Positions 1,411 to 62,500 of a DNA stretch of 64,000 nucleotides are shown here, one piece after another. How positions within the stretch are numbered: position 1 is the first letter of the stretch; the number at the start of each line of letters is the position of its first letter. Under the pieces are notes generated by a model. That model did no database searches. It worked only from the letters and a program-made list of their open reading frames with translations, and was not told the origin of the DNA. The translations under genes and the position numbers were made by a program. Origin of the DNA: Owenia fusiformis (lineage: Eukaryota > Annelida > Polychaeta > Sabellida > Oweniidae); NCBI GenBank assembly GCA_903813345.2, contig CAIIXF020000006.1, forward strand, positions 186,001 through 250,000, given 5' to 3'.

Positions 1411-3732
1411 GACCACTTAGTGTGTTACTTCGCAGGGACTTTAGCATTAGGAGCAGTGAATGAATGTCCCTCAGAGCATTTAAATCTTGCTAGACGTCTA
1501 ACAAAAACATGTTATGAGATGTACGCTCAAATGCCTACAAAGTTAAGTCCTGAGATAGCACATTTCAATATGATTCCTGGTGTAAAGGAGGATCTGATTA
1601 TAAAGGTATGTAGCTCTTTAAGTGTAAACATATATTTTTGACAGCTTGATAATATGTTTTTCTATCTCAGATGAAAAGCTTTTTATAGTCTCACGGAGTA
1701 TTATTCTTAAGAATTCTTTTCATCACAGTTAAAAAAATGTCATATGTTTTTGGGTGTGTTAGAATAAATCTATATTCATTTTATGAGCTAATAATTTTGA
1801 ACAGTTTTCTATGATGTTTAAAGGGGCAATAAGGACTGTAGAGAAAATAGGAAAGTTTTTTCATTTTTTCTGAGCTATCAAGGCAACATTTGGTTTAACA
1901 TCTTCTTTGACATACCTATTTTCTTAAAATGTATGGATAAATTATCAATTTTAGCATTAAGTAGTGTAAATTCAGTTCAAAGCTTCAAAAAGGGGACTTC
2001 CACTTTTATATTTTTAAGATCCATCATGTTTCAAGAGGAATATCAGCTAAAATAATGTTTATCTAGGGCGTTTCTTTGAAGATAATAAAAATAGATGTTA
2101 GTCTTGATGAAATATTCAAACTTAAATATATTTTGACACTGGTCCATGATCGTTGAATGATTCCTCTGCACTAATTATTGCACCTGCCTTGTTTATTCCA
2201 TAGGCTAAAGAATTGAGATAGAATTGAGAAATAGCGCTATATTGTGCTATCTATGTTTATCTGTATAGCATACTTCTCTTTAGAGATAAATGGATTCAAC
2301 GCTGATGCCATCTTTATATTGGTCAAAACCCTACGGTTTATTTGTATGGAAAGTTGGGAGAAGCAATATATTCAAAACAAACGTACCACATGTTAATGGC
2401 AACCATTAATGAATTGATCTTAATCTTCATTATTCATTAATTACATCATAAATTAATAATACAACTGTATAATGAACCCAATACAATATATATGGGGAGT
2501 GTAGTTATGTTAAAAACTCACATTAAGAAAATACCTAAAAGATTAAAAAATATAAAAGGAACTGATCTTTGGTACACAAGGGTGGGGACATCTATATTCA
2601 GGACATTTTTGGTACATTCTGACACCATTTGGTATAAGTGATTTATAATGATCTCAGTTTTCTCAGAACACAGCACAGGGACTTTGTGTGCAGACATTTT
2701 CACTTCACTTATAATGGCGACAAGCTTATATTAATATTTGCATTGTTAAAAAGTTCAGATAAAGTTGAACAATCTAATGATAAGGGCATATTGTGCTTGA
2801 TATGGAGAAATTAATTATTTTTCATCCTGAATCAGATCCTTTTACAGTAAGCTCTGAACAGGAGAAATAGACATATAGTTTTGATGCTAAGATCTAAATG
2901 ATCCCAAAAGTAGCTGCCATAGCCTCTAATTGGAGTTTCATTATGAAATGAATGATAGGTACTTATGAAAGCATAAAATTCAGGTAATACCTGGATTTTT
3001 ATCTATCATATCCTCAGTGTTCTGATTGGCTAGGCCTAGTTGAAAAGATCTTCTCTATATCTCAGAGTGTAGATGAAGCTGTCTTTCTATATGAATATGA
3101 TCCTCACATATTTAATTTCTATAAAAATGATTGATTTAAGGAAATATCTCTGAAAATGTCAAATCAATCTGTCAAGTGGTTTGTTTGAAAATGCGCCGAT
3201 GGTCAAGTACAATGCTCCTGCCAACCTAGTTGATGACAATATACATAGTACTTTTATTCAAAGTTTCAGCTAAGGGGGAGGGAATAGTGTTTAAACAAAA
3301 AATTATTTGTTTTTCTCAACTGCTGATACATGGAAACCATCCTTTGAGATATTTCTTTTGTTTAAAGAAGCTAACCCAGTGTAATCTTTCTTCTTCCAGG
3401 GAGCAGACAGTCACAATCTACAAAGACCAGAGACGGTTGAGTCATTATTTTATATGTACAGACTTACAGGGGAGCAGCAATACAGAGAGTGGGGCTGGAA
3501 AATATTTGAAGCTTTCGAAAAACATACCAAAGTACCAGGAGGTGGTTATACCTCTATACATAATGTTAAAGATGCTCAAAATCCTCGCCCTAGAGACAAA
3601 ATGGAAAGCTTTTGGCTAGGAGAAACATTAAAATATTTTTATTTGTTATTTAGCGATGATGAATCTTTATTACCTTTAGATAAATATGTGTTTAATACTG
3701 AGGCCCATCCTCTACCTATTTATACTTCATAG
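1411..3732 (+). CDS. MAN1B1: ER mannosyl-oligosaccharide 1,2-alpha-mannosidase, 3' two coding exons
   Basis: Glycoside hydrolase family 47, the ER enzyme that trims one mannose from N-glycans and helps mark misfolded glycoproteins for degradation. Seen: exon 1411-1605 (65 codons, from [16 protein letters not shown]) and exon 3400-3732 (111 codons, stop TAG), joined in phase 0 by a GT-AG intron. The second exon contains [10 protein letters not shown], whose second Glu is the family's catalytic base, [18 protein letters not shown], and the terminal FNTEAHPLP, whose Thr binds the catalytic calcium. The PRDKMESF and [13 protein letters not shown] strings fit MAN1B1 better than the Golgi MAN1A enzymes. 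Upstream exons, including the membrane anchor, lie left of the window. The protein ends PIYTS, normal for the family. The neighbouring PPT2 gene is convergent. I am sure of the family and fairly sure of the subfamily. Confidence 0.93.
1606..3399 (+). other. Last intron of MAN1B1
   Basis: A 1.8-kb GT-AG intron (donor GTATGT, acceptor after TTCTTCC). I see no repeat boundaries, RNA gene or exon in it. Confidence 0.8.
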
Positions 3733-35283: not shown

Positions 35284-38200
35284 CTATACTTCATTGTAGT
35301 GTCCGGGTCCCTTAGCTAACTCTGGATTTGGACCTGTGTAGAGAGAATGATCTGGTCCATGGTAGAGTTTGTGGTCTGGTCCCTCAGATGCAGAGTGCTC
35401 ATTGTCTCCACTATGTAAATTAGGGTCAGGACCATGTCTGTGGGCCTTCTGTGGACCAAACTGAGGAACATAGGTGTCACTGCAATACATTGGTGTTAAC
35501 CTTTATATAAATGTTAGTGCCATTATTATATGGTCTCCATAATGGAGGGGCATGACAGGAGTGGATGCTTATGATGGACAGTTGTACACTTGGAAGGGCA
35601 TGACAGGAGTGGATGCTTATGATGGACAGTTGTACACTTGGAAGGGCATGACAGGAGTGGATGATTATGATGGACACTTGGAAGGGCATGACAGGAGTGG
35701 ATGATTATGATGGACACTTGGAAGGGCATGACAGGAGTGGATGATTATGATGGACACTTGGAAGGGCATGACAGGAGTGGATGCTTATGATGGACACTTG
35801 GAGGGGCAAGACAGGAGTGGATGCTTATGGTGGACACTTGGAGGGGCATGACAGGAGTGGATGATTATGATGGACACTTGGAAGGGCATGACAGGAGTGG
35901 ATGCTTATGATGGACACTTGGAAGGGAATGACAGGAGTGGATGCTTATAGTGGACACTTGGAAGGGCATGACAGGAGTGGATGCTTATGATGGACACTTG
36001 GAGGGGCAAGACAGGAGTGAATGCTTATGGTGGACACTTGGAGGGGCATGACAGGAGTGGATGATTATGATGGACACTTGGAAGGGCATGACAGGAGTGG
36101 ATGCTTATGATGGACACTTGGAGGGGCAAGACAGGAGTGGATGCTTATGGTGGACACTTGGAGGGGCATGACAGGAGTGGATGATTATGATGGACACTTG
36201 GAAGGGCATGACAGGAGTGGATGATTATGATGGACACTTGGAAGGGCATGACAGGAGTGGATGCTTATAGTTGACACTTGGAGGGGCATGACAGGAGTGG
36301 ATGCTTATAATGGACACTTGGAGGGGCATGACAGAAGTGGATGCTTATGGTGGACACTTGGAGGGGCATAACAGAAGCGGATGTTCACCATGGACACTTG
36401 GAGGGGCATGACAGGAGTGGATGCTTATGGTGGACACTTGTGGATTGATAGGGTTAGATAGGATCATTCTTGTTTTAGTTTCAATCATTGTTACATTCTA
36501 TAAATATCACATTTGACATGTGCATCTGAGGCATTTTATTCTATAGTAGCATTCTTTGTTATTTTACATTGTTCATGTTTACATTACTATATACAGAATG
36601 ACTGAATGATTTCTAATTCTATAGTATCTGCCAGAAGCATAATTCTTAGGAGAGCTTTTAAGTGTTAAAGCGAACACAACTTTACAGATTTATATGAACA
36701 AATAACTTTTTTGAACTAGTATAGGATGCCATGTGAGGTTAAATTAAACTGGGTATTCTATCACAGAACATAAAGAGTTAACTTACAGAAGGTTTGATTT
36801 ATCATGCCCTTGCACCAGGCTGCCATCAGGACCAGCTGCATGGGTTCTCAGTGCTGACACATACTGTCCAGTTGTTGCATGCTTCTTTGGGCTTTTCTGC
36901 TTGGGGATTACATGTGTATGAACATTGGCAGTCCTAAAATATCAGATTGTATATACATGTACATTCACAGTCCTGAAATATTGTATGTAGTATGCACATT
37001 GGCAGTCCTGAAATATTACATTGTATGTAATATGCACATTGGCAGTCCTGAAATATCAGATTGTATATACTGTAGATACACTTAATTTGGCTACCATTTT
37101 AATTTGAGGGATTGGTGGATTGAAAAATCCGCCAATTTTCAGATCTATTTTGGAAAGTCCCTAGAGAATTTGATATTTGCAATTGTTTCACTGGTGTAAG
37201 TATTCCCATTTGGATGTCAGTACATAGCCAAGACTTACTGAAAGCAGAACACATGAATTTGAAATGTTTATTTCCAGATCTATGATAAAACTTGAGCTCA
37301 GTCCTGATTCCGCAAAATTAAATAGCCGCCAATATTTGAAATTGAGCAAATCCGCTAAATTAAGTAGCGTCAAAATAAGTATATCTACAGCACATGCATA
37401 TTGGCAGTCCTGAAATATTAAGTTGTATGTACACTGGCAGTCATGTTATAAATTGTATGTATATTAGGTGACAGGTCATCTCAACCCCAAGTCATCTCAA
37501 CCCAGTCCAACTCAACCCCAAGTCAGCTCAACCCCAAGTCAAGTCAACCCCAGTAAAACTCAACCCCAAGTGAACTCAACCCTGTAAAACTCAACCCCAG
37601 TAAAACTCAACCCTATTCATTTGTGCAATGTCAAATTTAATTTTTTTATGATGAATAAGTTAAGTCATTCATTTCTGAAAATCTAGCATTTTGCATGATA
37701 AACGGTTACCTCAAGGATAGTTCATCAAGTTGTCACTATTATTTAATGAAGACATCTTTTGAAATCAAATTTTAGATAATTTAGAAATAATTAACAATGT
37801 TATATAACTTTTTATTTATATGAACATGCATTAACAAAGTCATTAACATTTACTAATTGATAGACTGAAAGCATATAGGTGTAGCCAGGAGGGGTGCGCA
37901 CACACCCTCCCCCAATTTTGAAGGAAGTTGCATCATTTTGTCAAAACATATCTTTTTTGGCTCGCTTATGCCACGAGCCCCTAACTGAAAATCTGATTTT
38001 TGGGCGATCACATCCCTCCTGACTGAAAGCTGGCTATGCCCCTGGAAAGCAATGGTCATGTTCCAGTTTTCCAAATAATCACGATTGTCAACCTCATAGG
38101 GATTACAACAAAACAAATGTATTAGCAAGATAATAAAATGACCCATATTTTAATCCTATTAGTACCATGTTGAGATTTTGGAGATAAACTCATTATTAAC

Positions 38201-41200
38201 TATAATCTAAAAAGGCAGTGGTCTAAGAATGAAAATCACAAACTGAATAATCAGAATTATTTTTATGAAATAAACTTTCTTATAAGTTTATCAATACAGG
38301 TATATAGAAATACAGGGGTTGAGTTTTACTGGGGTTGAGTTTTACAGGGTTGAGTTGACTTGGGGTTGAGTTTTACAGGGGTCGACTTGACTTGGGGTTG
38401 AGTTGACTTGGGGTTGAGTTTTACTGGGTTGAGTTGACTTGGGGTTGAGATGACCAGGAAGCTGTATATTAGCAGTACTAAACGATTAGCTAAGTAAAGA
38501 CTGCTTAGGCCTCTTACAAGTATTGCAGTTTTAATTATAAGTTTAAAGTAACTTAAGAATACATATTCTAGGCAAATGTATATAATATGTGCCTCACTTG
38601 GTTTTAGCTTTAGCCTTGGTTGTGTTTGTTTTCTTGGTTGGGGAGGTGGCTCTCTTATTACTCTTACTCTTATTGGATGTGGAGGTTGAGGCACCAGGTG
38701 TGGAGCTACAACAGAACATAATATGCTGATTTACATAAATTGAAATTGCAGTGGAATCTGTGTATATGAGACATTTTTAATCCCTCAAAATTGTGTTCTC
38801 TTTGAAAGGTGCTGCATACAGATTCTTTTACATTGAGTTAATGGATAAGTACACTTATTTCATTGTTATTCCAAGTTCAACTGAACAGTGTTTGATACAC
38901 AAATAAGTTGAATGGTGCACCAAACAGCTAACTGCAGTAATTTTCATTCTAAATAACCCTAATACATATTCGTAATTCATAATGATATGTTATTACAAAA
39001 TTGATAGACTTGATCATTAACCTTCTTTTCCAAAATTTTAAAAGCTTGAGTCAAGTTCCAAAATTGGAAAAGAAAACTAAAAGCAACAAGCTAACTTTCT
39101 TCATTTTTTCAAGCTACAGTAATAACGGAAATGTCTATTGATTGTGTGATATACATATCATTATATTATGAAACAAAAATACTTTTGAGAATAGTTATAA
39201 GCCATTCAATTGAGCTGGTGAAATCGATTCTCCATTCTAGCTGTTAAATATACTAAATATAGACAAAATAAGCTAATTATAATAACCCTAGCTTACCTTG
39301 AAATTGATGTTTTGGGAGTAGTTGCAGAAAATGTCACTTCTGAAAGTGAGACATCACCTGAAAAATGTTTAATACAATGATCAGTCACTATCATGCTTGT
39401 TACTTAATGAATGCTCAAATCTGGGTCACATGACAAGATCAGGTGGTATTCACTGGACAAGCAAAAGCGGGGAATTAATAAATTTCCCCCTTACTTTTAG
39501 CAAGTGAAAGCCTGCCTTATAATAAACAAGAAAAAAAAACTCTAAATGGATTTTTTGTCTTTCAGGGACCTTTCTGTTTGTAACTATTTCAATCAGTTGA
39601 AAATTAATGAAGAAAGAATATACATCTTGGATATATTAACTCCCCCAACACACACAAACCTACCTGTAAGTGGTCTAGAGCTGGCTTCTGAGCTAGCAGA
39701 TCTAAAATAAAGCAAGCAAATATGAAGTCATTTACATACAGTATCTATCAAATCATTCATTGCACTATTTGAAATTAATGTATTTCAGAGAGCAACAATT
39801 CTAGTCATGATTAAGCAGGGTAGTCACATTATTTTCATAAAAGTATCTATTAGTGTTTCTTATTAAGAAAATGTTTCAATTGATGGATCTTTTGCTAATG
39901 ATCAAGCATATCAACATCTGGGTTTCATTGATCCAGAACAACAGCAGACTGTACTCACACTAACATACGATGCTGTCATATTTCACATTTTTGTGATTTT
40001 GAAATATTTGTGGCAATTAATTTTCTCGAATTTGTCACTTATCAAAAACGTTTCCAGTCCTTTCTTGAATTTTTTGAAAATGTCTTTGTCTTGCTATATC
40101 ACCCTTTGGACTTCAATGACAGCAATGCTGATACTCTCCTCACTCAAAGCTTTTGTTACAACCTGAAGCTAGCTTGTTAGGAGGTTTATTTTGATTGAAA
40201 TGTTTATGGAAATTAATTATTTTAAAGATACCTCACTTTTGTCGCCCAGCACTATGAGAAAATACTGTCAACACTGAGTAAAATGAAAACCTGGGAATTT
40301 CGCAAATATTGTATTTTGCAAATTAGAACTATTGGAATTTTGCAGCGATTGTATTTCATGAACTTTCCAGAACTCCCGAAAAGTGAAGTACGAAGAGTAG
40401 CACGGGAAAATTACTATATTCTGGATTACTCTTTCTACCTAATACTGGTGATTACAAAAGGGACTTATTAATTAATGTTAAACAATATTTACACTTCACG
40501 AGTAGGTGAAGACATGCTCTCAAGAAGATGGCGTGTTTTAGTCTCATCAAACTGACAGGCATCAAGGGCCATTTCAATCACTGTCTTGGCCTGTGTGGAG
40601 AACTCTTGTTGCATCTTTTCTTGCACTATAGAACAAAGGAATTATCTTATTTCATTTACAAGTATTTATACAAGAAATACATCAAGGCCCAATCACTACA
40701 AAGGAATTCCTATCAACCCTTGTACTCGTACATATGGCATTTATTGACTCTCTGATGTCTTACAATGATTATTGGTCCTGATATATGAATACTGTATTAT
40801 TATTTGAACAACTACAAAGTGCAACTCTTTATCACCCTGATATTTAAAGTAGCAGCCAATTTTTCGAATTTCAGTTAAGTATAGGTCAATAGTTTTCTAA
40901 GTTGAACCTAAAACTTTACAACTGATTGTCACTTTTTACTTCACCTGACCCAAAGTGTGACATAAAGAATCAGGAACCAACCATACCCTGCTAGTGTTGA
41001 CCCACACAACATCTGTATAATATGCAGCGCATATAAGTAATACTATAAAATTAATACTTAATACTTACAATGTGTCTTTACAGCTTGGCTGAGTTCAGAT
41101 CTTTTCGGAGATGCCCTAGCTGGTGATGCACGGTTTGAACTAGATGGTTTAGGTTCAGGTTCAAACATTTTCTTCAATTTTTCAGATGCTTTGTTCTCAT

Positions 41201-44200
41201 CATTGTTTACACTGTAATGAAGGCAAAAAGAGGCAGTTAGCAGTTAGCATCTGAGACTTTCACTTTGTTCAAAATTTGCTCAAAATACTTCCCATTGCCA
41301 CTTTATTCAAAATTTCTCACCCTGCAAGTATGTCTTTAACCAGAGATTCATCTGCTGATGGATACAGTGCCTTAAGTCTCCGTACAGCCTTGTTTCGTTC
41401 AACTATCTTAGGGTCCACACTCTTGGTATACCCCTGCACTGTTAAATCCATGATTGCCAGGCCTTCAACGTTAGCATTCCTATTAGAAATAAGGAATGTA
41501 TGCATTAATAGGTGTATTATCTGAACATACTAGCAACTGTTATTCCTATGTCTATATACTGTACTTGTATGCATCAAAATCTTGATAGCATTGAATGAGA
41601 ATAAAATATGCATATAGCGAATCGTGATATTATATGTCATGCATGATAATCACATTTTTACAAGTAAAGACTGAAGAGCTGGAATACTTAACAGCTGTCT
41701 CTCAAGCACTGAAACAAGTGAAGCCTGCATCCAGTTCAAATTTTGAAAATTAACTTGCACCCATGTGACCATTCCTATGCAAACCATTACCCTGCACCCA
41801 GTCAGCCACTAATTTAATATTTGGATAATATTTTTGACCAGTTTTTAACAAGCTATATATCAATGCATACATACTTCTCTAAAGCTGCTGCTATAACTGG
41901 CTCTCCGACTGATGGAAACATTTCCTTTAATTTCTGCAACATCTCCTGATCGACTGTTGCTAGACCAAGACTGCCATCCTGGAGACATATGAATGATAGG
42001 ATATATATTTGATCCATGACCAGGTTACATAAATCACCAACTGTTATCCTATTTTCTTATACATGTACATGTAATTACTTTAAAGTTTGTGTTAAAAAGG
42101 TGGCTAGAAGTGATCAACAAATGTTTAAGCACATGCCTAACTAAACTGAGACTTAAATAAGAGACAGAATCACAGTAATCTTTATACTCAGCAAACAACT
42201 TTCTGTTTCCACTTACATGTTAGCAATAACATGTAACATTCAGTGAAGAAGATGTCAAAGCTCCTTTAAACACAGTATTATGGAATATGCAATGCATCCA
42301 GGGCTATCGCTAGGCTTTTAGACTGTGGCGCCCCCAAGGAAAATTGGCTCTCAGTATTCTTTTGACTCGTGTTGACAAATATGATATTAATATGATGATT
42401 ATCTTCAGATAAAACATTTATTTGGGACACATACCATGGCAATAATATCACCCTATTTGTCAATGGCAGTCAAAATATGATTACCAAACTATAGTGGGAA
42501 CTAACTCCTCTTGAGATAGACTTGCACTGTATGTACTTACATCACTTTCACTTTCATCCCCTGCTGTTCTGTCTATTTGAAACTCATTGGTAATCCTACA
42601 GTTCCAGCACTGTTCCCCTTGAACCTGTACCTGAAAAACAAATTATGGAGGTGTATAATAGACGTAAATAATTCATCATTGTTCCGTCCATTTGAAAATC
42701 ATTAGTGATTCCACTGTCCCTGCACTACTGATTCAGTCCCCTAGAACATAATAAACTCTCTACTATGGACACATGGACTTATAATGATGTCACTTCTAGA
42801 CTAAATTACATTTATTATGTTCCCGGTAATGAAGAGATGTGGGAATGTGAGCACTGGATGAAATGTTCATGGCCTCTTATGGCGGACATCTTAAAATACT
42901 GGTCGATTAAAAGATTGAAGAGTATAATACTGCAATTAGAGACAACCACATCTTTTTTGCTATATGATGTATTGGGAGAATGTTTCCGTTGATGTTTAGA
43001 ATCGATTGAGGTAACAAATATATGCATAGCTAGCGCCATTTTTTGACATTTGAAAAATTCGCAATAATTAATAATTTTATAGGCTTATTGTTAATTCTTG
43101 TCAAAAATTCTATTCTTTCAAAAGCATCTATCTTGTGTAATAGATAAACATGTACTAAAAAGAGCACTCTAGTATTAAGCACTTAAGTGATAATGAACCA
43201 AATGAAGCATTCATAATGATACACCCGTAATACGCATAAAACATGTAAATCTGGCATCATTGTTTAATGATCCCCTGCAGGCCTGGTCTTAATGTGCCAT
43301 ATGTGTTTAATATTTGTCTGTTTTACTTTGAAGATCCTTGTCATTTGAAATGTCAAAGAAACGCTTTAAAATAGTGAAAACTTGATGAATTATCCATACC
43401 TTTTTTACACCACATGCTGTACATAAGGGAGTTCCAGATGATTTTTGTTTCTCGTAGTACTCTTTTCTAGGGTCTTCCCAGGTTGTTTTATGTGTTGTGT
43501 GGTCTATGTAGAAACTGCAATAGAAATAAGAGAGCTGGTTATATTGTTCCATGTAAATCATTTTAAAGATACTAGTGTCATAGCTATTAAGTACCCTGCA
43601 TGCAGAGTCTAGTTAAACTACACTCTGCCTAGTAGAGACCATATTACAGTTTAGTAGCCCCGCCCCCACGACGGGTACCGGTGACAATTTGGGTAAATCA
43701 CTTTTGACCTACGCGCCGACCTTCCACCAATCAGCGAGCTTGAAGAAACATGCGCCAAATGCATTCTAATTAAATATGCGCATGTCCTTGGTCAATTCCG
43801 GGCTCAACGATGACGTCAGAAGGAATAACCATATAAAGAACGTCGGTCAAATTTGGCCGACGAACACTGATTGGCACGGTGAGTTCACAGGTTTATTTTA
43901 GTTTGGAAGAGTGAAGACGAAGCTCTCTTTTAAGAAGTGAAGTCAAACGAATGCAAAGGGTAGCTATTAAGCAAATTACTACTGAAAAACATTTTCTGAT
44001 TCTATAACATTTTAAAAATGCGAAACAAATGTTTAGTAAATTTGTTGTACTTTAACTTATAGTACCCTTGTAAAGCCATGTCAAATGCAGGAATCCATGG
44101 CCTTAGATGTACCAGCATCAAGAGTACCACTGATATAAATAGTGTTTCTTAATAAATAAATAAAAAAATTCTTGCAATGAATCAACCATGCTATCCATGT

Positions 44201-46978
44201 TATCCTGTGTCAAACCTAGTTTCTCAGAATATCTGAGACTATTATATGGTCATTACACTTGGGATCAACTGGATTCAAACCACCAAAACTGCAGAAGTCC
44301 AGCGGCTTTATCCATTAGGCCATAGAGACAAGTTAATTTAAACAAGCAAATTTTAAGCTATATTATGAATTATAGAAAACAGTCGAATCACCGCATAAGA
44401 TTAATAAAAAAAATAGTCAATAATCATTTTAATAATATTAAAATACATATTTAAGTAAATATTCTAAGCCAAAATCAGGTTTATTGATATAAATCCAGTT
44501 TTCATTTACTAGATAATCTATTTCCTGTTATGACACGTAAAAAAACATGGCCTCGACAAAATATTTCTTGCTTCCAATTTTCAAAATGATATATATCCAT
44601 GAATCAGTTATTTTGGCATTTGAACCCATATTTTCTTGAAAAGTATTCCTTGAAATCTCAAATTTCGGTCTCTGAAGTATTTGAAAGTCAGTTTAATGAG
44701 AGGTTTTTGATACATTACGTCTGAAACGTCTAAAATCACAGACAATCAGCAGAACCGAAAACCAGACACCAGCAAAGATTTCAGAAAGCCGCCGAACAAA
44801 GGCTACCCAAAATCACACACGGGTTGCAGAACCAAACGAGACAATTCATCCAGAATCAAGATGCAAGCAAACCTGAAGCTGAACCACAACATAACAACAT
44901 TGCAACACCAACAAGACCAGCAGGGGCGTAGCCACATATACGCAGAATACGCAGCCGCGTACTATTGAGAGTCAGAAACCAAAAGTGCAAATTGAAATAA
45001 ATCATTTATTTAATCCAACAGTGTTGTTATGTTGTTATGTTTTTAATTGTCAAACAAGTGATCAGAGTTTATTTAAGCCCAGTCTGCCTTTGAACCCAAT
45101 GCAAACATCTTTTTTGGGCTATTGTGAGGATGGACTGCGTGTTCCCGTCATATCCCCAGATCATATCATTCTAACGAGGGTGCACTTTTCTCCGTTGTCT
45201 GCAACTATGTTGAAAACGGGTAATACACGTCGCACGAAAATGGGGACAATGCATTAGCGTAACATTATTGCGTCAAAATACCAGAACAAAACAATAGGGC
45301 GCAAACAGCCTTACAACGTCAAAACGACAAGCGTCACGTTTTTTAAAAGTTAAATCAACCGAAAAATGAAATACTTTATCCTTATTTAATCATGATAAAA
45401 TTCACAGGGTAGCAAGATCTCGAGGATAATATTTCTAAAATGTTATTGAATTTTGAAAAACGGTCAAGATATCCACTTATGGCGTTAGTAAAAATTGATA
45501 TGTATGGAATTTGGGGTGAAAAATCGTAGCGTCACATTTTTTCAAGTCTCGAAAATCAGCTCTTATTTTAATATTATTTGCAAAATAAACAAACTTGTTT
45601 TTGTTTTGTAAATTTCGCAGTGACGATATTGTACAGCTGTACAGTTAATTTTTTGTTTCAAATCAGACCTGAAGAAGGTTAAATGAAGGTAAACTTACTG
45701 CTCGTCCCCTTCCCTTCAATACAATTCAAAAGCGTTTAGACTAGGTGAGAGATGAAATATAATATGTAGTCAATAATGATACAATTCAAAAGCGTTTAGA
45801 CAAGGTGAGAGATGAAATATAAATGTATTCAATAATGATACAATTTAAAAGCTTTTAGACTGCTAGGTGAGAGATGCAATACAAATGTATTCAATAACGA
45901 TACAATAAGTGAGAGAATGGATGATCGTCAAGCATACTCTCACGCCAACATGACAACGTAGATTGATTAAGATAAAGAAGATTGATACAGTATTTGTATC
46001 ACTTATCAGATAGATTAACACTTAAAAGTACGTACAATTATTCTCGATCGACACCAGAGGATTTAAATCACAAGTTACAACTCAAAGCAGTTAAAGATAC
46101 TGTAAGTCTTAATTACGCAAAACAAGTAACGTTAAACGTTTCGGACCCTTTAAATAACAAGGTCCCGGGAACAAGGTACCATAAACAACGAGTCTAAACA
46201 ACTCGTTTAGGTGTTTTTCAAATAATTATCATAGCATGGGTTAGCGACTCGGTATTGTCCTAGGGTCTGTAGATCCCGGCTGTAGAAACTTCAAAATGGA
46301 AATAGATGAATAATTACGTACGTTTTTCTACTTTTATTGTTTGTACCTGGAGTTCATGGCTTGGAAATCTACGAGAAAATCTTTTACGACAACTCAAACA
46401 CTATTTTAAATACTATAGAATAGCACCTAGAATCGCTCAGAACGCGCCAAATAAGCCCAAAAATCCAAATTTTTACGGGGGAGCATGCCCCCGGACCCCC
46501 CCTAGTTTGGCTCGGCCTGCGGCCTCGCGTACTACCGCCACTAATCCTGGCTACGCCCCTGACCAGTCTCAGAAACATAGCAGATCCACAAACAAAACAT
46601 CTAGGAGAGGTAAAAATTCTCTCGACTTGTATGACTCTGATTGCATCGGTATGTATATTTTTGTATTAATAATTGCAGTACCAATTATCTATCAAATGAA
46701 GTACTTCATCATTGTTGTTTTGAGATGGCAAGGAATTTTTTATGGATTTTTTATTTGATTTTTCAGTTGGTGTAGGCAATATTACAGGTTATTTTCCATG
46801 TAGTTCATAACTGACTGGTATAAGATATTGCCATATTTGAGAGAAATATATAGTGTTTCGAGAAAACTTACTGTCTTTGAGTATTGGCATCATATTTGGC
46901 CTCCCAGTTCGGTGGAAGTGGCTTAGCCCACCAATTATCTTGCGAAGCCATCTTTGAGTAAGCCTCGTTTCCAGTCAT
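35284..46978 (-). CDS. WW domain, zinc motif and CUE-repeat protein, unnamed
   Basis: I do not recognise a named orthologue. Coding exons (minus): 46978-46872, 43514-43400, 42630-42541, 41978-41875, 41479-41321, 41211-41069, 40625-40495, probable microexon 39972-39959, 39701-39664, 39357-39297, 38705-38598, 36933-36787, 35479-35284; about 470 residues. Seen: a WW domain (Trp25, Trp48, Pro51; HFYIDHTTHKTTWEDPR), a four-Cys motif CTAC (67-70) and CWNC (82-85), CUE domain 1 around 113-155 with MFP, CUE 2 around 166-210 with LYP, a third CUE/UBA-like helical stretch near 250-280 (MALDACQFDETKTRHLLESM), a Ser/Lys-rich linker, and a tail with GPDHKLYHGPDHSLYTGPN-like repeats. WW domains bind proline motifs and CUE domains bind ubiquitin, so a ubiquitin adaptor is inferred. 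The ATG at 46978 follows an in-frame stop; ATG at 46951 is an alternative start. Exon 7 to 8 splicing is uncertain. Confidence 0.8.
35545..36440. repeat. 40-bp minisatellite, about 22 copies
   Basis: The unit is about 40 bp and contains GGCATGACAGGAGTGGATG and TATGATGGACACTTGGA. The first copies carry an extra 9-base insertion (CAGTTGTAC). It lies in the last intron of the WW-CUE gene, beginning about 65 bp after the final coding exon on the plus-strand side. Frames through it are repeat artefacts. Confidence 0.9.
36903..37070. repeat. Degenerate ~48-bp tandem repeat
   Basis: About four copies of ACATTGGCAGTCCTGAAATAT with variable linkers; another pair resumes at about 37389-37445, interrupted by the MITE at 37070-37390. 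It abuts, and slightly overlaps, the acceptor end of a coding exon of the WW-CUE gene. Confidence 0.7.
37070..37390. mobile_element. MITE with CTGTAGATA ends
   Basis: Begins CTGTAGATACACTTAATTTGG and ends TATATCTACAG; the termini match inverted over roughly 35 bp with mismatches. It appears to have split a tandem-repeat array, since repeat copies lie on both sides. Non-coding. Confidence 0.6.
37474..38455. mobile_element. Fold-back element with tandem-repeat ends
   Basis: The left end (37474-37617) is an array of CAACCCCAAGTCA / CAACCCCAGTAAAACT units and the right end (about 38316-38455) is the same array inverted; outermost sequences are GGTCATCTCAACCCC and its complement. This is the structure of Foldback-type transposons. 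The 700-bp core includes CATGCCCCTGG-like repeat sequence near 37880-38045 but no protein gene. Confidence 0.75.
42675..42742 (-). pseudogene. Decayed duplicate of exon 3 of the WW-CUE gene
   Basis: In the intron just upstream of exon 3 (42630-42541), a minus-strand stretch matches that exon at most positions. Translated in the matching frame it reads ITNDFQMDGT against ITNEFQIDRT of the real exon, but a stop lies just before and the second Cys of CWNC is lost. It is a tandem exon duplication that has decayed, or never became usable. Confidence 0.6.
43658..43880 (+). promoter_or_regulatory. Promoter-like cluster in intron 1 of the WW-CUE gene
   Basis: In order on the plus strand: CCCCGCCCCC GC box (43658-43667), CCAAT (43727-43731), CRE TGACGTCA (43811-43818), TATAAAG (43832-43838), then about 45 bp later an ACG|GTGAGT splice-donor match at 43879-43880. 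The spacing is that of a TATA promoter with a short first exon starting near 43862. The region is CpG-rich compared with its surroundings. No downstream protein exon was recognised; it may drive a non-coding transcript or derive from a retroelement. Confidence 0.4.
44140..44333 (-). repeat. tRNA-Arg-derived SINE
   Basis: On the minus strand TATGGCCTAATGGATAAAGC is an A-box region of a tRNA-Arg type and GGTGGTTTGAATCC is a B box about 30 bases on. A tRNA-unrelated body follows, and then a T/A-rich end containing TTTTTTTATTTATTTATT near 44150-44170. That order (tRNA head, body, simple tail) is SINE-like. Confidence 0.6.
45718..45905. repeat. ~62-bp tandem repeat, three copies
   Basis: Unit contains GATACAATTCAAAAGCGTTT and GGTGAGAGATG. 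It lies in intron 1 of the WW-CUE gene. Non-coding. Confidence 0.75.
46384..46570. repeat. Dispersed repeat with GC-rich end
   Basis: A GC-rich block (GGGGGAGCATGCCCCCGGAC, then a C-run and GGCTACGCCCCTG) stands out from the AT-rich surroundings. Similar endings occur near 37885, 44932 and 51046-51175, so this is probably the conserved end of an interspersed repeat family. The frames through it are not a gene. Confidence 0.45.
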
Positions 46979-56500: not shown

Positions 56501-59500
56501 ATAGGGACTTGAGGGTACAATTACATGTTACATGCACAAACCTCATGAGTGCAGTAGAGGGAAATTAAGAAATTAAAATGAGGGAGCAATTCAAACTTTT
56601 CGTATAACAGTATATATAATTTTTTTAATGTATTGACACAGTACATGCATGTCCATCACCAGTTGAAAGGACACTGCTTTTGTCATAAATGCCCTATGAA
56701 AATGAGAGATTTTAATTATTCATAATAATCAAATTATAGTTGATAGTAAACTTCCTTTAACTAATCACACACATATGGGCATACTATGAAACTTGATTAC
56801 ATGTTGAGATGGTCCCTGTAAAATCAAAGGTATATCTCTATGATTGAAGTTGACAAGATTGCTGTGTAATTAGGTCGTGTTAATTAGGATATTTGCATGA
56901 TAACTGACTTAATGTGTCTGGCCATGCCATTGATTGCATACCAGTATATAACAGAACACTTCAAGTAACGCATCATAAATCAACTGGCTTTGGAACTGGA
57001 AGGGTTCACTGGATTTTTCTTGTAAGCCATTTCAGCTACTATTTTCATTGCTGGATTGAAACAAGAGTATATATAAGATCAAATTGGATTATAGTAACCA
57101 TAAAGTATTCACTTCAAGGATATGAAATTAATGCAACTTAACAGGACATAGCATACAATTAAAACAAAAATTGGAATTAAAGGTTTGTGAAATAATACTT
57201 TCTTGACCAACTAAGGTCCAAAGAGAAATTACATTAAATGTAAAAGTAGATGTAAAATAAATAACTGTGGTGTGTGGTATGGTGGTACGTGAGAACTGGA
57301 GATTCTTTTTTCTGGATTAGAGTATGGTTTCATTATACTCGCAGTAGTCGGAAGCTGACAAAATCTAAACCTCTATGTCACTTACTTTCTAGGATGATAA
57401 ATTGAGAAGAATCTTAGAAGCAAATCCTAACTCAGACTGGAAGATGATTTCCCAATACTATTCAGACAGGTCTGATATACAGTGCCAGACTAGATGGCAG
57501 AAGGTCCTCAACCCTGAGCTCATCAAGGGACCTTGGACAAAAGAGGTAATTCAAAATTTAACTTGTGCCTGACATTTCTGCAAAATCAGTTCAATTTGTG
57601 GTAAAGTTTCAACTTTTTTTGTTGAAATGTTTTTACTCAGAAGCTACCTCAAATGTCATTTTTTATTTTTTTATTTATTTATTAATTATCCTCATTCATT
57701 ACATAACATTTACAAAATCTTCAATCGCCAAATACATGCATGGCATTATAGAAGAATTGATGGAACTTAATGAAATATAATATAAGGAGCAATGTTAACA
57801 GTAGTTTTGGGGTTGTGGGGGGGGGGGTGCTTGGCGTGGGAAACAGTTAATGGAGATAAAAGATGTTTAAGGAGGGAAAATCATATATTGGCTTTTATAA
57901 AGGAAGCTAGCCTGGTCATCATTTTCGAATTAAGTTCGATAGAGATTTCAGTTGAGCCATATTTCAGAACTTCAAGATATTTATGCTGAGAGATTTGCCT
58001 GTCAAAAATTTCAGGGACCAGGTTTTTCAGGTATTGATTAAATTCATCCCTGGCATGTGTCAAATGAGCACAGTGGAAAAAGAAGTGTTTAACTGTTTGT
58101 GGATGTCCACATGAACAGTTTGGGTTGTCAATATTGCTAAAGTTATGAGCATATAGTTGGGCCTTAAATAAAAAGTCGGCCCTGAATTTATTTACTATTA
58201 TCTCATGGCTCCTTGTGAGGTTCAGTTTGCTGGTTGTGATGACATTTATTGGATTTTTGAAAAGCAGTTTTTGATGTTTCTTGAAATTCTGGATAGTAGC
58301 TTTACTCTTTAATGTATTTGGCAGGGCTAACCAGTTGGAGATTGCAGAGGGTACCGCTGAATTTCTGTACCGTTCAGAGCATTTTGGTATAATGAACTCA
58401 TCAGTGTTACGCAAGTTTCGAGTTTCTGGTTATTTGAACTTATCAAATATGTCATCAAGAAATTTAGGGTTAGGACCATGTACTATTTTGTACATAAAGT
58501 TGTTTATAAACATTTTTCTTCTAGTGTCAAGAGATGGCCATTGAAGTAGCATTAGTACTTTATCTGTGCTGCTCCCGTGAATACAACCTGAGCAGTAGAT
58601 AGCAGCTTTATAATATAATCTATCGAGCATTTGGAAGAACTATTGTAAATGATGGTACCATAATCAAAATGGGGCAATATGAAGGAGTTGAAGATTGTCT
58701 CCAAATGACTAGATCCTATTTTGTTTTTGAGTTTTTTAAATGGATTCAACATTTTTGTTACGTTATCATAGATGTTACTTATATGGTGCTTGTGTGTTAA
58801 GCATGGATCAAACGTGAAACCGAGGTGTTTATGGGAATCAGCTCTAACTATTTCCATATTATTAAGATTAGATGGACTGATATCATTAATACGTGTTCTA
58901 GGTTTATGAAATATCAGTTCATGACTTTTTCTGGTTTTCCTCAAATGTCATAACAGACAACAGAAGTAATGAGATTACTAGTGGACTTTTTTAACAATAG
59001 TAATATTTCTTTATTGACTCGTAACTAAATATTCCAGGAGGATGATAAAGTTCTGCAACTGGTGCAGAAGTTTGGACCAAAGAGGTGGACCCTCATATCC
59101 AAACACCTGAAAGGACGCACTGGCAAACAGTGTAGAGAAAGGTAGAGATTTTGAAGTTATTTGTAAAGAAATATTAATTACATATGTTATTATGTGAGTG
59201 ATTCCTGAGAAAATGTCCGATATGATATGTCCAATAACAGATTTTGACTGATATGGGATTCAGTATAAGATTTTGATTAACACAGAATCAGATTCCTGGT
59301 GATGGCTGATAAGGGTTTGATTGAACAAAATATTCAAATTCTTGTTTGATTATCTTACAGGGAAAGTTTTTAATTATGTTCCAGCCAAACCCTTTCAGAT
59401 AAGCAAACAGCAGATTACATGTATTATGATCTGAAGTTGTCATGGTTGTTGATCCAGATAACAAGCCCACATAGTAGTGTTCAACATTATTTAATCACAT

Positions 59501-62500
59501 ATAAACTATTACATTTACACTCAACTGTTAAAGTGTGGACTTGACCCATGTGAAAATTGACATGTACATGCATATTGGCCATTGGGTCTGTTGCGTGCTA
59601 GATGATTTTGTGCATGCATGATGTCTGTATCCAAATGTACCATCTACCATGTATATAAATAGTATATAATGTTTGATATTCAAGTTAATCACCTCATTTA
59701 ATCCCAGAATTAATTTTTATTGCCAATTGAAATCACGACATGCAATAAAAGTACAATGAACATAACTTTACAAACTAATCTGCTTACGTTCCTAATGGTT
59801 GATTAACTAAGATATTATTCATCAACTGATTCATTTAATCCTAGATGGCACAACCATCTGAACCCAGAGATAAAGAAGACAGCCTGGACTGAAGAAGAGG
59901 ACAGACTGATCTACACATTACATAAGAAGATGGGCAACCGCTGGGCGGAGATTGCAAAGTACCTTCCTGGAAGGTGAGATTCAATTTTGAATTTTGTGCA
60001 CATTATTACATTGACAGATTTCAACATAAGTTTACATCATGCATATAATTTATGCACATACCAAATTCTTATTCAATGATAATACATCAAAGAAAGGTCT
60101 TGCAAAAAGGCATGTAATGAAAATCATTAAAAATTCATTGTTGATTTTCAGGACTGACAATGCCATAAAAAATCATTGGAATTCCACAATGAGGCGGAAA
60201 TATGAAAATGAAGAAATAGAATCCAAGAAACAAAGAAATGCTGGTGCATATCCATTTAATGCTGCATACACTCCAAGTCAACCAAATAGTATGCAGGGTT
60301 TACAGCCAGTGAGGCTCTTCCAGAATGAATACCATGCAGAGGTAAGGTGTATTCATATTTTCACAATGTTAATGCTCTATATTTGATGTGTATGATGGAA
60401 ATGGAAATCAGAATTAGCTCAAAATAACCCCAAGACTTTTCTCTACATAAAAATCTTGTGAGAAACTTGGAACGCAAAATTGAACTTTTCATACAAAAAT
60501 GTTTTTTAAAATCGCCCTAGATTCAGATCTTACAAGCCTTCAGTAGAAATCACTATTAATAGAGCATATCTTTTCAAGGGTTCACAAATGAGCAGCCATA
60601 CTCAAAGCCAGCAACAGCAGCAGATGCATGGGGAGAAAACAACAAAAGTCGCAGGCGGCTTTAGCTATGACAACACTATGCAGCAACATACCCCACAGGC
60701 CCAGCAGTATCAGAACTACAATGATCAACAGACCAAGACTTCAGATAGCATGTCCCCTGGTGTACAGAAATGGCTACAGATGGACACTGATGGGTTACTC
60801 TCTCCTTTGAAGTATGTTTATGATTTGAGTTTGAATGATTTTATTTAGTCCAAATAGAAAATGTAGATTAAAATCTCAAAATATGATATCTCACATATGC
60901 TTTTGTATAAGAAAAAACTTCAAAAATGTCTGCCATTTGACTTTTTTGCAATTAAATCTGATAATCTGAAATTATTAGTTTTGTGTAGCTTACATTATAT
61001 TTGTTGCATTTTTCCATATAGCAGACATCCTGTATAAAAAATACATTAGCTAATTGAATAGCTTTTTGTTTAGGTGTATACCAGACCTGTATAATCAGAT
61101 ACAGCAGGAAACAGATATGACGACATTCCAGTTACTGACTGGCAGTAAATCTATGACCCCCATCAAGTTTAGTAGCCTGAAGCAGGGCTCAGTAGGTAAG
61201 ACAGAACAATACAGTTTGTCAATCGTCTGTCATCTGTTTGAAAAATAATCAAGAAAATATCTTTAAATTCAGATGATTGTTCAGTTTTCATCAGTTACTT
61301 TTCAAACCTTGAACAACACATTCTGAAGACAACCTTAGATTGAATTTAAAATTTTCAGCATGTACTGTACATGTAAATATCACTATAACAAAAGTTTTCA
61401 CAAAAGGTCTGTAAACTTTATAATGTACTCTGTAAATGATGTTAACTTGACTGGTCATAATAAGAAATGATAAGAAACATCCTTATGAAAAAAGGATATC
61501 GCTAAGTGTTTGTGGTCTGTTGAAATCCACTGAATCACCATGCATTTAAAATACTTAACCCCCGTTCAATGAATGTCATCCAGGTTATCGTTTTGATGGT
61601 CACGCCATATCTTCTCTAAAAGATGAATCTGGTGGTTGTCTCATCAGCATCACATCTCCTTTGGTATCAAAACTCACAACCCCACCAACAATCTTACGTC
61701 GTGGGAAGCGTCGGCGGAATTCTGAATCTGGCAACAAGTCTGACCTTGAGACGCCAAGTAATGGAAAAGAAATGCCTGTTATGGTGGGCACTATTAAAGA
61801 AGAAATTGAGGATGTGAAACCAATCCCAGAAATTAAATCTGAACAAGATTTTGACAGAGTTGATGGAACTATTGGAGAACTGCCTAAAACCCCAAAAGGA
61901 ACTCCAATCAAAGGACTGCCATTTTCACCATCACAGGTATGAGAAATATTGGACACCCTTTGGCCAACGTTTTTCTCATATGGAGGTTAAAATAATTTCA
62001 CAAACTACAAATGTCTTAATTGCGTCTTTCAATGTATTTGGCAAAATATGGGTTGTTGAATTTTCTAAAAACTGAAAAAATGAAAATCAAAGAAGTTTGT
62101 AATTTTTCACTTCCTTTTACCATCTATGTTATCCACTGTTTTTGTAAAGAACTGGCGTTTGTATTTGACATCTGCATAAAAATTATTTCACTGTCAACTG
62201 AATGCAATAACTTCAATGAGATTATGTTTTGTAACCATCAATGCCTCGGCTGTGTTTTTACCTGCTATTTTCTGTAATGTCATCCACTGTTCTGTTTTAG
62301 TTCCTGAACAGTCCAGGTATACCACTTGGAGATGGGACTCTGACCTCTACTCCTGTGTGTCAGCCGAGACAAGCTATCACCCCACAACCTGTCAAACAGG
62401 AACCACAAGCTAGCACGCAAGTAACTGACAGGTAGGTAGTAATGCAGATGTGCATGATGAAATGGTAAATCTTATACTACTCACATTTCTTTGTGGGTAT

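Follow-up and report, generated by a model that had tools for sequence, protein, structure and literature searches.

Gene structure and genomic surroundings

A gene predicted to encode a WW domain together with CUE-type domains lies on the minus strand of the window, by which is meant the whole 64,000-nucleotide stretch of Owenia fusiformis DNA that was analysed (C6:186001-250000 of G000, the genome searched, with 498 Mb in 525 contigs). Twelve minus-strand exons between 46978 and 35284 (window coordinates) join without a stop codon into 466 codons followed by a terminal TAG, and all 11 introns are of the GT–AG type, with each junction in phase. This agrees with the preliminary description of the locus, in which the exons had been joined in phase into one frame, and the features listed there are all present in the joined translation, namely Trp25 and Trp48, C67TAC70, C82WNC85, the MFP and LYP motifs and the GPD tail. 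The coding part of exon 1 (46872-46978) begins with Met1 at 46978, and Met10 follows at 46951-46949. Graded by the Kozak rule, the start context of Met1 is poor and that of Met10 is good (AAGATGG), and the protein is therefore probably 457 amino acids long.

Codon usage, trained on four long open frames from other loci (418, 435, 581 and 683 aa), favoured the true frame in 11 of the 12 exons, the exception being exon 10, where one other frame scored slightly higher (8.0 against 6.9). Open stretches of equal length that scored as high numbered between 0 and 25 of 1500 for each of 11 exons and 70 of 1500 for exon 2, with the 1500 stretches taken from window positions 4001-33000, which are assumed to be mostly non-coding. 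Exons 8 (39664-39701) and 9 (39297-39357) encode a Ser/Thr-rich linker and exon 10 (38598-38705) a low-complexity linker rich in Ser, Thr and Lys, all three being placed by the spliced model and codon usage.

Splicing raises the score of the WW domain from 23.6 bits for exon 2 alone to 44.2 bits, and that of the CUE domain from 28.7 to 37.5 bits, so that the junctions between exons 1 and 2 and between exons 4 and 5 are backed by homology; the junction between exons 11 and 12 is backed by a likely homologue with the same phases on contig C8. An earlier study of domain architecture cautions that where predicted animal proteins differ in architecture, errors of gene prediction are often the cause (PMC3927609). 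An error of this kind is disfavoured by the in-phase splicing and the higher domain scores for the part from the WW domain to CUE1, and less so for exons 8-10. The 12-exon gene model is convincing as described. Searched with the whole protein at E-values up to 0.001, the genome returned only the gene's own exons (10 of 10 matches on C6), and by this search the gene is single-copy.

Two of the introns contain repeats. In intron 10 lies an element of 982 bp (37474-38455) with GGGGTTGAGTT(GACTT) units and inverted ends of 140 nt that are 95% complementary, and at least 30 further copies span no less than 88% of it with identities of 84-92%, 40 of 1099 candidates having been scored. Judged by this sequence, it is an abundant non-autonomous TIR-like element. 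Intron 11 holds a minisatellite (35634-36440) in which a 40-bp unit is present in 20 copies with 92% matches. Elsewhere in the window, the plus strand encodes the C-terminal part of a family 47 glycosidase of the alpha-mannosidase I type at 3385-3729 (Pfam 179.4 bits), and exons that by eye are Myb transcription factor-like at 60030-61942 (Pfam Myb 12.9 bits against a cut-off of 24.4, a part having been scanned). Two open frames on the minus strand at 57881-58947 look by eye like the reverse transcriptase end of a non-LTR retrotransposon, with no Pfam match above the cut-off.

The WW domain and the four-cysteine motif

The WW domain (residues 21-51) is intact only once exons 1 and 2 are spliced, its first half lying in exon 1 and its second half (43514-43469) at the start of exon 2 (43400-43514). 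It matches Pfam PF00397 above the cut-off of 26.9 bits and over the complete profile (1-31 of 31), which bears out the WW domain proposed earlier and makes its assignment from sequence firm. The best solved relatives, among the best 60 of 113 matches, are the WW domains of WWP1, NEDD4L and Itchy. The Tyr, Ile, His, Thr and Trp positions fit class I, the PPxY-selecting class, and a preference for PPxY is predicted.

Exon 2 also holds the first CxxC pair, starting at 43423, and the second (CWNC) lies with an acidic stretch in exon 3 (42541-42630). The resulting four-cysteine motif, at residues 67-85, reads CTAC-x11-CWNC (CX2C-x11-CX2C), and its spacing suggests that it is likely a zinc site. Matches of the motif to Pfam were sub-threshold only, with Vps36-NZF-N at 13.5 bits and Zn_ribbon_3 at 10.9 bits against cut-offs of 27, and the 27-aa core alone gave zero Pfam matches. 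An identity as NZF or zinc ribbon was dropped, as nothing reaches the cut-off. Compared with Pfam up to E=10, the 466 residues gave WW, CUE and a chance-level WDCP match only, with no enzyme domain, and no other family rose above the cut-off in Pfam and NCBIfam.

The CUE-like domains

Exon 4 (41875-41978) carries helix 1, the MFP motif and helix 2 of CUE1, whilst exon 5 (41321-41479) opens with a stretch at the place of CUE1 helix 3 and continues with helix 1, the LYP motif and helix 2 of CUE2. The end of CUE2, at about 41163, lies in exon 6 (41069-41211) and is followed by a Ser/Pro/Arg linker. These placements draw on the spliced model and Pfam for exons 4 and 6, on ungapped comparison for exons 4 and 5, and on Pfam and an exon model for exon 5. 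CUE1 (residues 115-144), with MFP at the end of helix 1 (KEMFPS), scores 37.5 bits against Pfam PF02845, where the cut-off is 21.1 bits, over profile positions 2-32 of 42 only. CUE2 (residues about 168-208) remains below this cut-off, with 12.0 bits alone and 15.6 bits in a longer piece.

The genome list contains at least nine CUE loci besides the window gene's own, of which six (without L012, L013 and L014) were used to build an HMM, seven (without L013 and L014) formed the alignment for hhalign, and the four that fit without gaps served in the ungapped tests. In the HMM CUE2 reached 4.6 bits, a score that 43 of 5000 shuffles equalled or bettered, and the hhalign probabilities were 92.1% for CUE1 and 24.6% for CUE2. 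In the ungapped tests the core from helix 1 through MFP or LYP to helix 2 was equalled by none of 5000 shuffles in either CUE1 or CUE2. The helix-3 part, on the other hand, scored -4.25 in CUE1 and -0.75 in CUE2 at the true register, and even at its best place 1843 and 1546 of 5000 shuffles, respectively, were as good. As a control, the four true CUEs were each left out in turn and gave helix-3 scores of 12.33 to 19.00, equalled by 0, 2, 4 and 34 of 5000 shuffles; since all four pass, the test is capable of detecting a real helix 3. The low profile scores of CUE2 thus arise because its core resembles CUEs and its helix-3 part does not.

It is the helix-3 part of a CUE that carries the di-leucine half of the ubiquitin site. 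In place of a di-leucine, CUE1 reads LT in an ungapped alignment to TOLLIP, and CUE2 reads LK. A search of the PDB aligned CUE1 without gaps to the TOLLIP CUE, but only at E 0.33, with an allophycocyanin, which is unrelated, ranking higher (0.22). When modelled alone, exon 5 gave a beta hairpin where helix 3 of CUE1 would be expected, and a pair of helices with a break at the LYP of CUE2, which is where a CUE would have one; the mean pLDDT was 81.8 (65.8-71.2 for the other four models), and as a prediction from a single sequence out of context it is given little weight.

From these comparisons the assignment of CUE1 as a CUE domain is firm, and CUE2 is likely a second one, which would fold as a CUE. 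The presence of a WW domain and at least one CUE in one predicted protein is well supported. The two MFP/LYP CUE-like domains of the preliminary description are in this way upheld for CUE1 and, as regards its core, for CUE2, whilst the helix-3 part matches CUEs in neither.

A third CUE/UBA-like helical stretch had also been proposed, at residues 241-277 (40623-40513) in exon 7 (40493-40625), and this part of the description did not hold. The stretch has no match in Pfam, is at chance level in the HMM of six genomic CUEs (2327 of 5000 shuffles as good), and has an hhalign probability of 0.3%. Modelled alone, it forms two helices, and there is no interruption at the place expected for FP, which reads FS (mean pLDDT 87.5, one sequence), and Foldseek found no chain with this model. 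In the ungapped test the expected register was the best and 30 of 5000 shuffles were as good over the whole length, which is weakly in favour of a CUE. On Pfam, the HMM, hhalign and the exon model, the third domain was dropped. Of the two adjacent GTs at the end of exon 7 (GTGTAAAT), the second serves as donor, and if the exon is left unspliced the frame stops directly after SPTREV (40489-40495). Since this stop lies right behind the donor, the tail could conceivably be missing from a short isoform.

The C-terminal tail and its counterpart on C8

Residues from about 353 to 466 form a tail encoded as a two-exon YVS…GPD module. Exon 11 (36787-36933), with YVSALR...GPDGSLVQGHD, contributes the first half, and exon 12 (35284-35479) the GPD/GPN repeats and the stop codon, both being assigned from the spliced model and from likely homologous exons on C8. 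When the tail of exons 11 and 12 was searched against the genome, its own two exons came up together with a match at C8:10372338 at E 0.19 and a chance-level match on C5 at 7.9. The C8 locus holds a second two-exon copy, YVSKLHCKPVGPNEDLVKGQD, then an intron and GPN repeats, with the likely counterpart of exon 11 at G000:C8:10371867-10372010 and that of exon 12 at G000:C8:10372314-10372472. Within 20 kb around this copy, the E-values from tblastn were 0.22 for exon 11 and 2.8e-4 for exon 12. In the window gene and the C8 copy alike, exon 11 has phase 2 at either end, and with this phase at its start the tail requires preceding coding sequence.

The alignments between the window and C8 tails beat 10000 of 10000 shuffles each, with 55 against a best shuffle of 51 for exon 11, 80 against 69 for exon 12, and 128 against 65 for both. 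The margin for exon 12 is flattered, as shuffling destroys its repeat rhythm; exon 11 is not repetitive, yet its margin is small. Genome-wide searches at E-values up to 10 speak against homology: exon 11 finds itself only, the C8 exon recovers no more than its own sequence and a match on C5 (E 1.61), and the joined C8 tail no more than its own sequence and a match on C1 (E 5.61), the window gene being absent from both of the latter. Homology of the tail module between the two loci is therefore considered likely on the basis of position, phase and the shuffle test, and not of a genome-wide E-value. Against Pfam, the window tail matched only IN_DBD_C at 11.9 bits (cut-off 21), which was taken as chance, and the C8 copy matched nothing.

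The C8 tail locus (10371867-10372472) shares with the window gene the two-exon YVS...GP-repeat module and its phase-2 boundaries, but differs in its surroundings, as tblastn of the 466 residues over 40 kb recognised no WW domain, zinc motif or CUE in the 29.5 kb upstream. The next-best match around the copy was a low-complexity repeat (E 1.8), and a WW-like stretch matched at E 4.9 is interrupted by a stop codon. In the genome-wide lists of best candidates, C8 has no CUE, and its nearest WW is 54 kb away on the other strand. A scan of about 8 kb near the copy by splice sites and codon usage gave no candidate above 6 bits; the same scan missed the C8 exon 11 within its range, and four exons of the window gene score below 6, so that its negative result carries no weight. 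About 8 kb upstream of the copy, at C8:10362728-10364068 (L018), lies an open frame of 446 aa that by eye resembles a packaging ATPase of the Maverick/virus type. The tail is a candidate for a domain that has no name, probably carried by two genes, and other animals can readily be searched for it.

Function and alternative readings

The reading that we tentatively prefer is that of a soluble adaptor in which no enzyme domain is recognised. The WW domain at its N-terminus, which in sequence comes nearest to those of NEDD4-type ligases, would dock on PPxY-containing proteins, CUE1 and perhaps CUE2 would bind ubiquitin weakly via MFP and LYP, the four-cysteine motif would serve as a structural zinc site, and the GPD-repeat tail would act as a separate interaction module. 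Such an adaptor could hold or sort ubiquitylated PPxY proteins or the NEDD4-type ligases that act on them. As a whole this is plausible, though short of probable. Ubiquitin binding by the predicted CUEs is possible, and its strength would probably be weak; MFP and the di-leucine are both reported to be essential for CUE–ubiquitin binding (PMC6688830). Against ubiquitin reading stand the helix-3 part unlike CUEs in both domains, the hairpin in the exon 5 model and the sub-threshold score of CUE2. The 'multivalent ubiquitin adaptor' of the preliminary description reaches further than these results, which give a WW domain, CUE1 and a likely second CUE, with the third domain removed and a helix-3 part that resembles CUEs in neither of the others.

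The same helix-3 result bears on a possible, though more doubtful, reading in which the WW domain acts as in the adaptor but the CUE-like domains bind a protein other than ubiquitin via helix 1. PMC6688830 reports that canonical CUE domains can bind non-ubiquitin partners, including a coiled coil, and that helix 1 of SMARCAD1 CUE1 binds KAP1, with the di-leucine adding little. The retention of the helix 1–MFP/LYP–helix 2 core without helix 3 would fit this mode, and as the control with four true CUEs firms up the loss of helix 3, a little weight shifts from ubiquitin reading towards it. CUE1 nevertheless retains an intact MFP and a score well over the Pfam cut-off, and SMARCAD1 CUE1 itself has a full di-leucine (PMC6688830), so that loss of helix 3 is no marker of a KAP1-type mode. 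An improbable further reading would have the locus yield both a short WW–zinc–CUE protein ending just after exon 7 and a separate or alternative product with the tail module. The stop right behind the exon 7 donor would suit it, as would a C8 tail module for which 29.5 kb of upstream sequence shows no recognised WW or CUE, but exons 8-12 are joined in phase and have the character of coding sequence, and the phase 2 start of exon 11 and its C8 counterpart calls for coding sequence ahead of the tail.

Compatible with any of these readings, and rather probable, is that the protein belongs to a widespread but uncharacterised invertebrate family, already recorded under names such as 'uncharacterized protein' or 'WW domain-containing', in which case it would be ordinary but for the missing name. 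The many introns, the ordinary codon usage and the diverged tail counterpart suggest that nothing here is freshly assembled. Among the pattern matches in viral contigs (3 and 153) and in prokaryote genomes (63) no relative was confirmed, an outcome that is unsurprising for an animal gene and tells little about it. In the literature on WW with CUE or tandem CUE domains, drawn mostly from outside the subscription journals, no WW–CUE protein was named in the titles and abstract openings of the papers listed. Humans are not known to have a WW–CUE protein. It is unlikely, though worth stating, that the adaptor represents a separate animal family in which PPxY recognition is coupled directly to the reading of ubiquitin with no ligase domain involved, and whose unnamed C-terminal GPx-repeat interaction domain occurs in two or more of this animal's genes.

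Comparison with known proteins

TOLLIP and CUEDC1 have an MFP-type CUE domain, as does CUE1 here. The same genome contains separate TOLLIP-like and CUEDC1-like loci (named by eye), which implies that the WW–CUE gene is neither of these, and C2 was not found in the protein. SMARCAD1 likewise has two CUE-type stretches in series, and the LK of CUE2 may be set beside the LL/LK given in PMC6688830. The present protein, however, gave no Pfam match to an SNF2 ATPase motor up to E=10 in 466 aa, and has a WW domain instead.

The NEDD4-family E3 ligases (WWP1, NEDD4L and Itchy) share with this protein a WW domain with a FYIDHTTHKTTWEDPR core. The window protein differs from them in having one WW domain only and in that neither C2 nor HECT was detected, HECT giving no Pfam match up to E=10 across the 466 residues. 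Vertebrates seem to pair PPxY and ubiquitin reading through separate proteins. Should the protein described here bind PPxY motifs as well as ubiquitin, it could act as a reader of what NEDD4-type ligases produce on the very substrates that they recognise.
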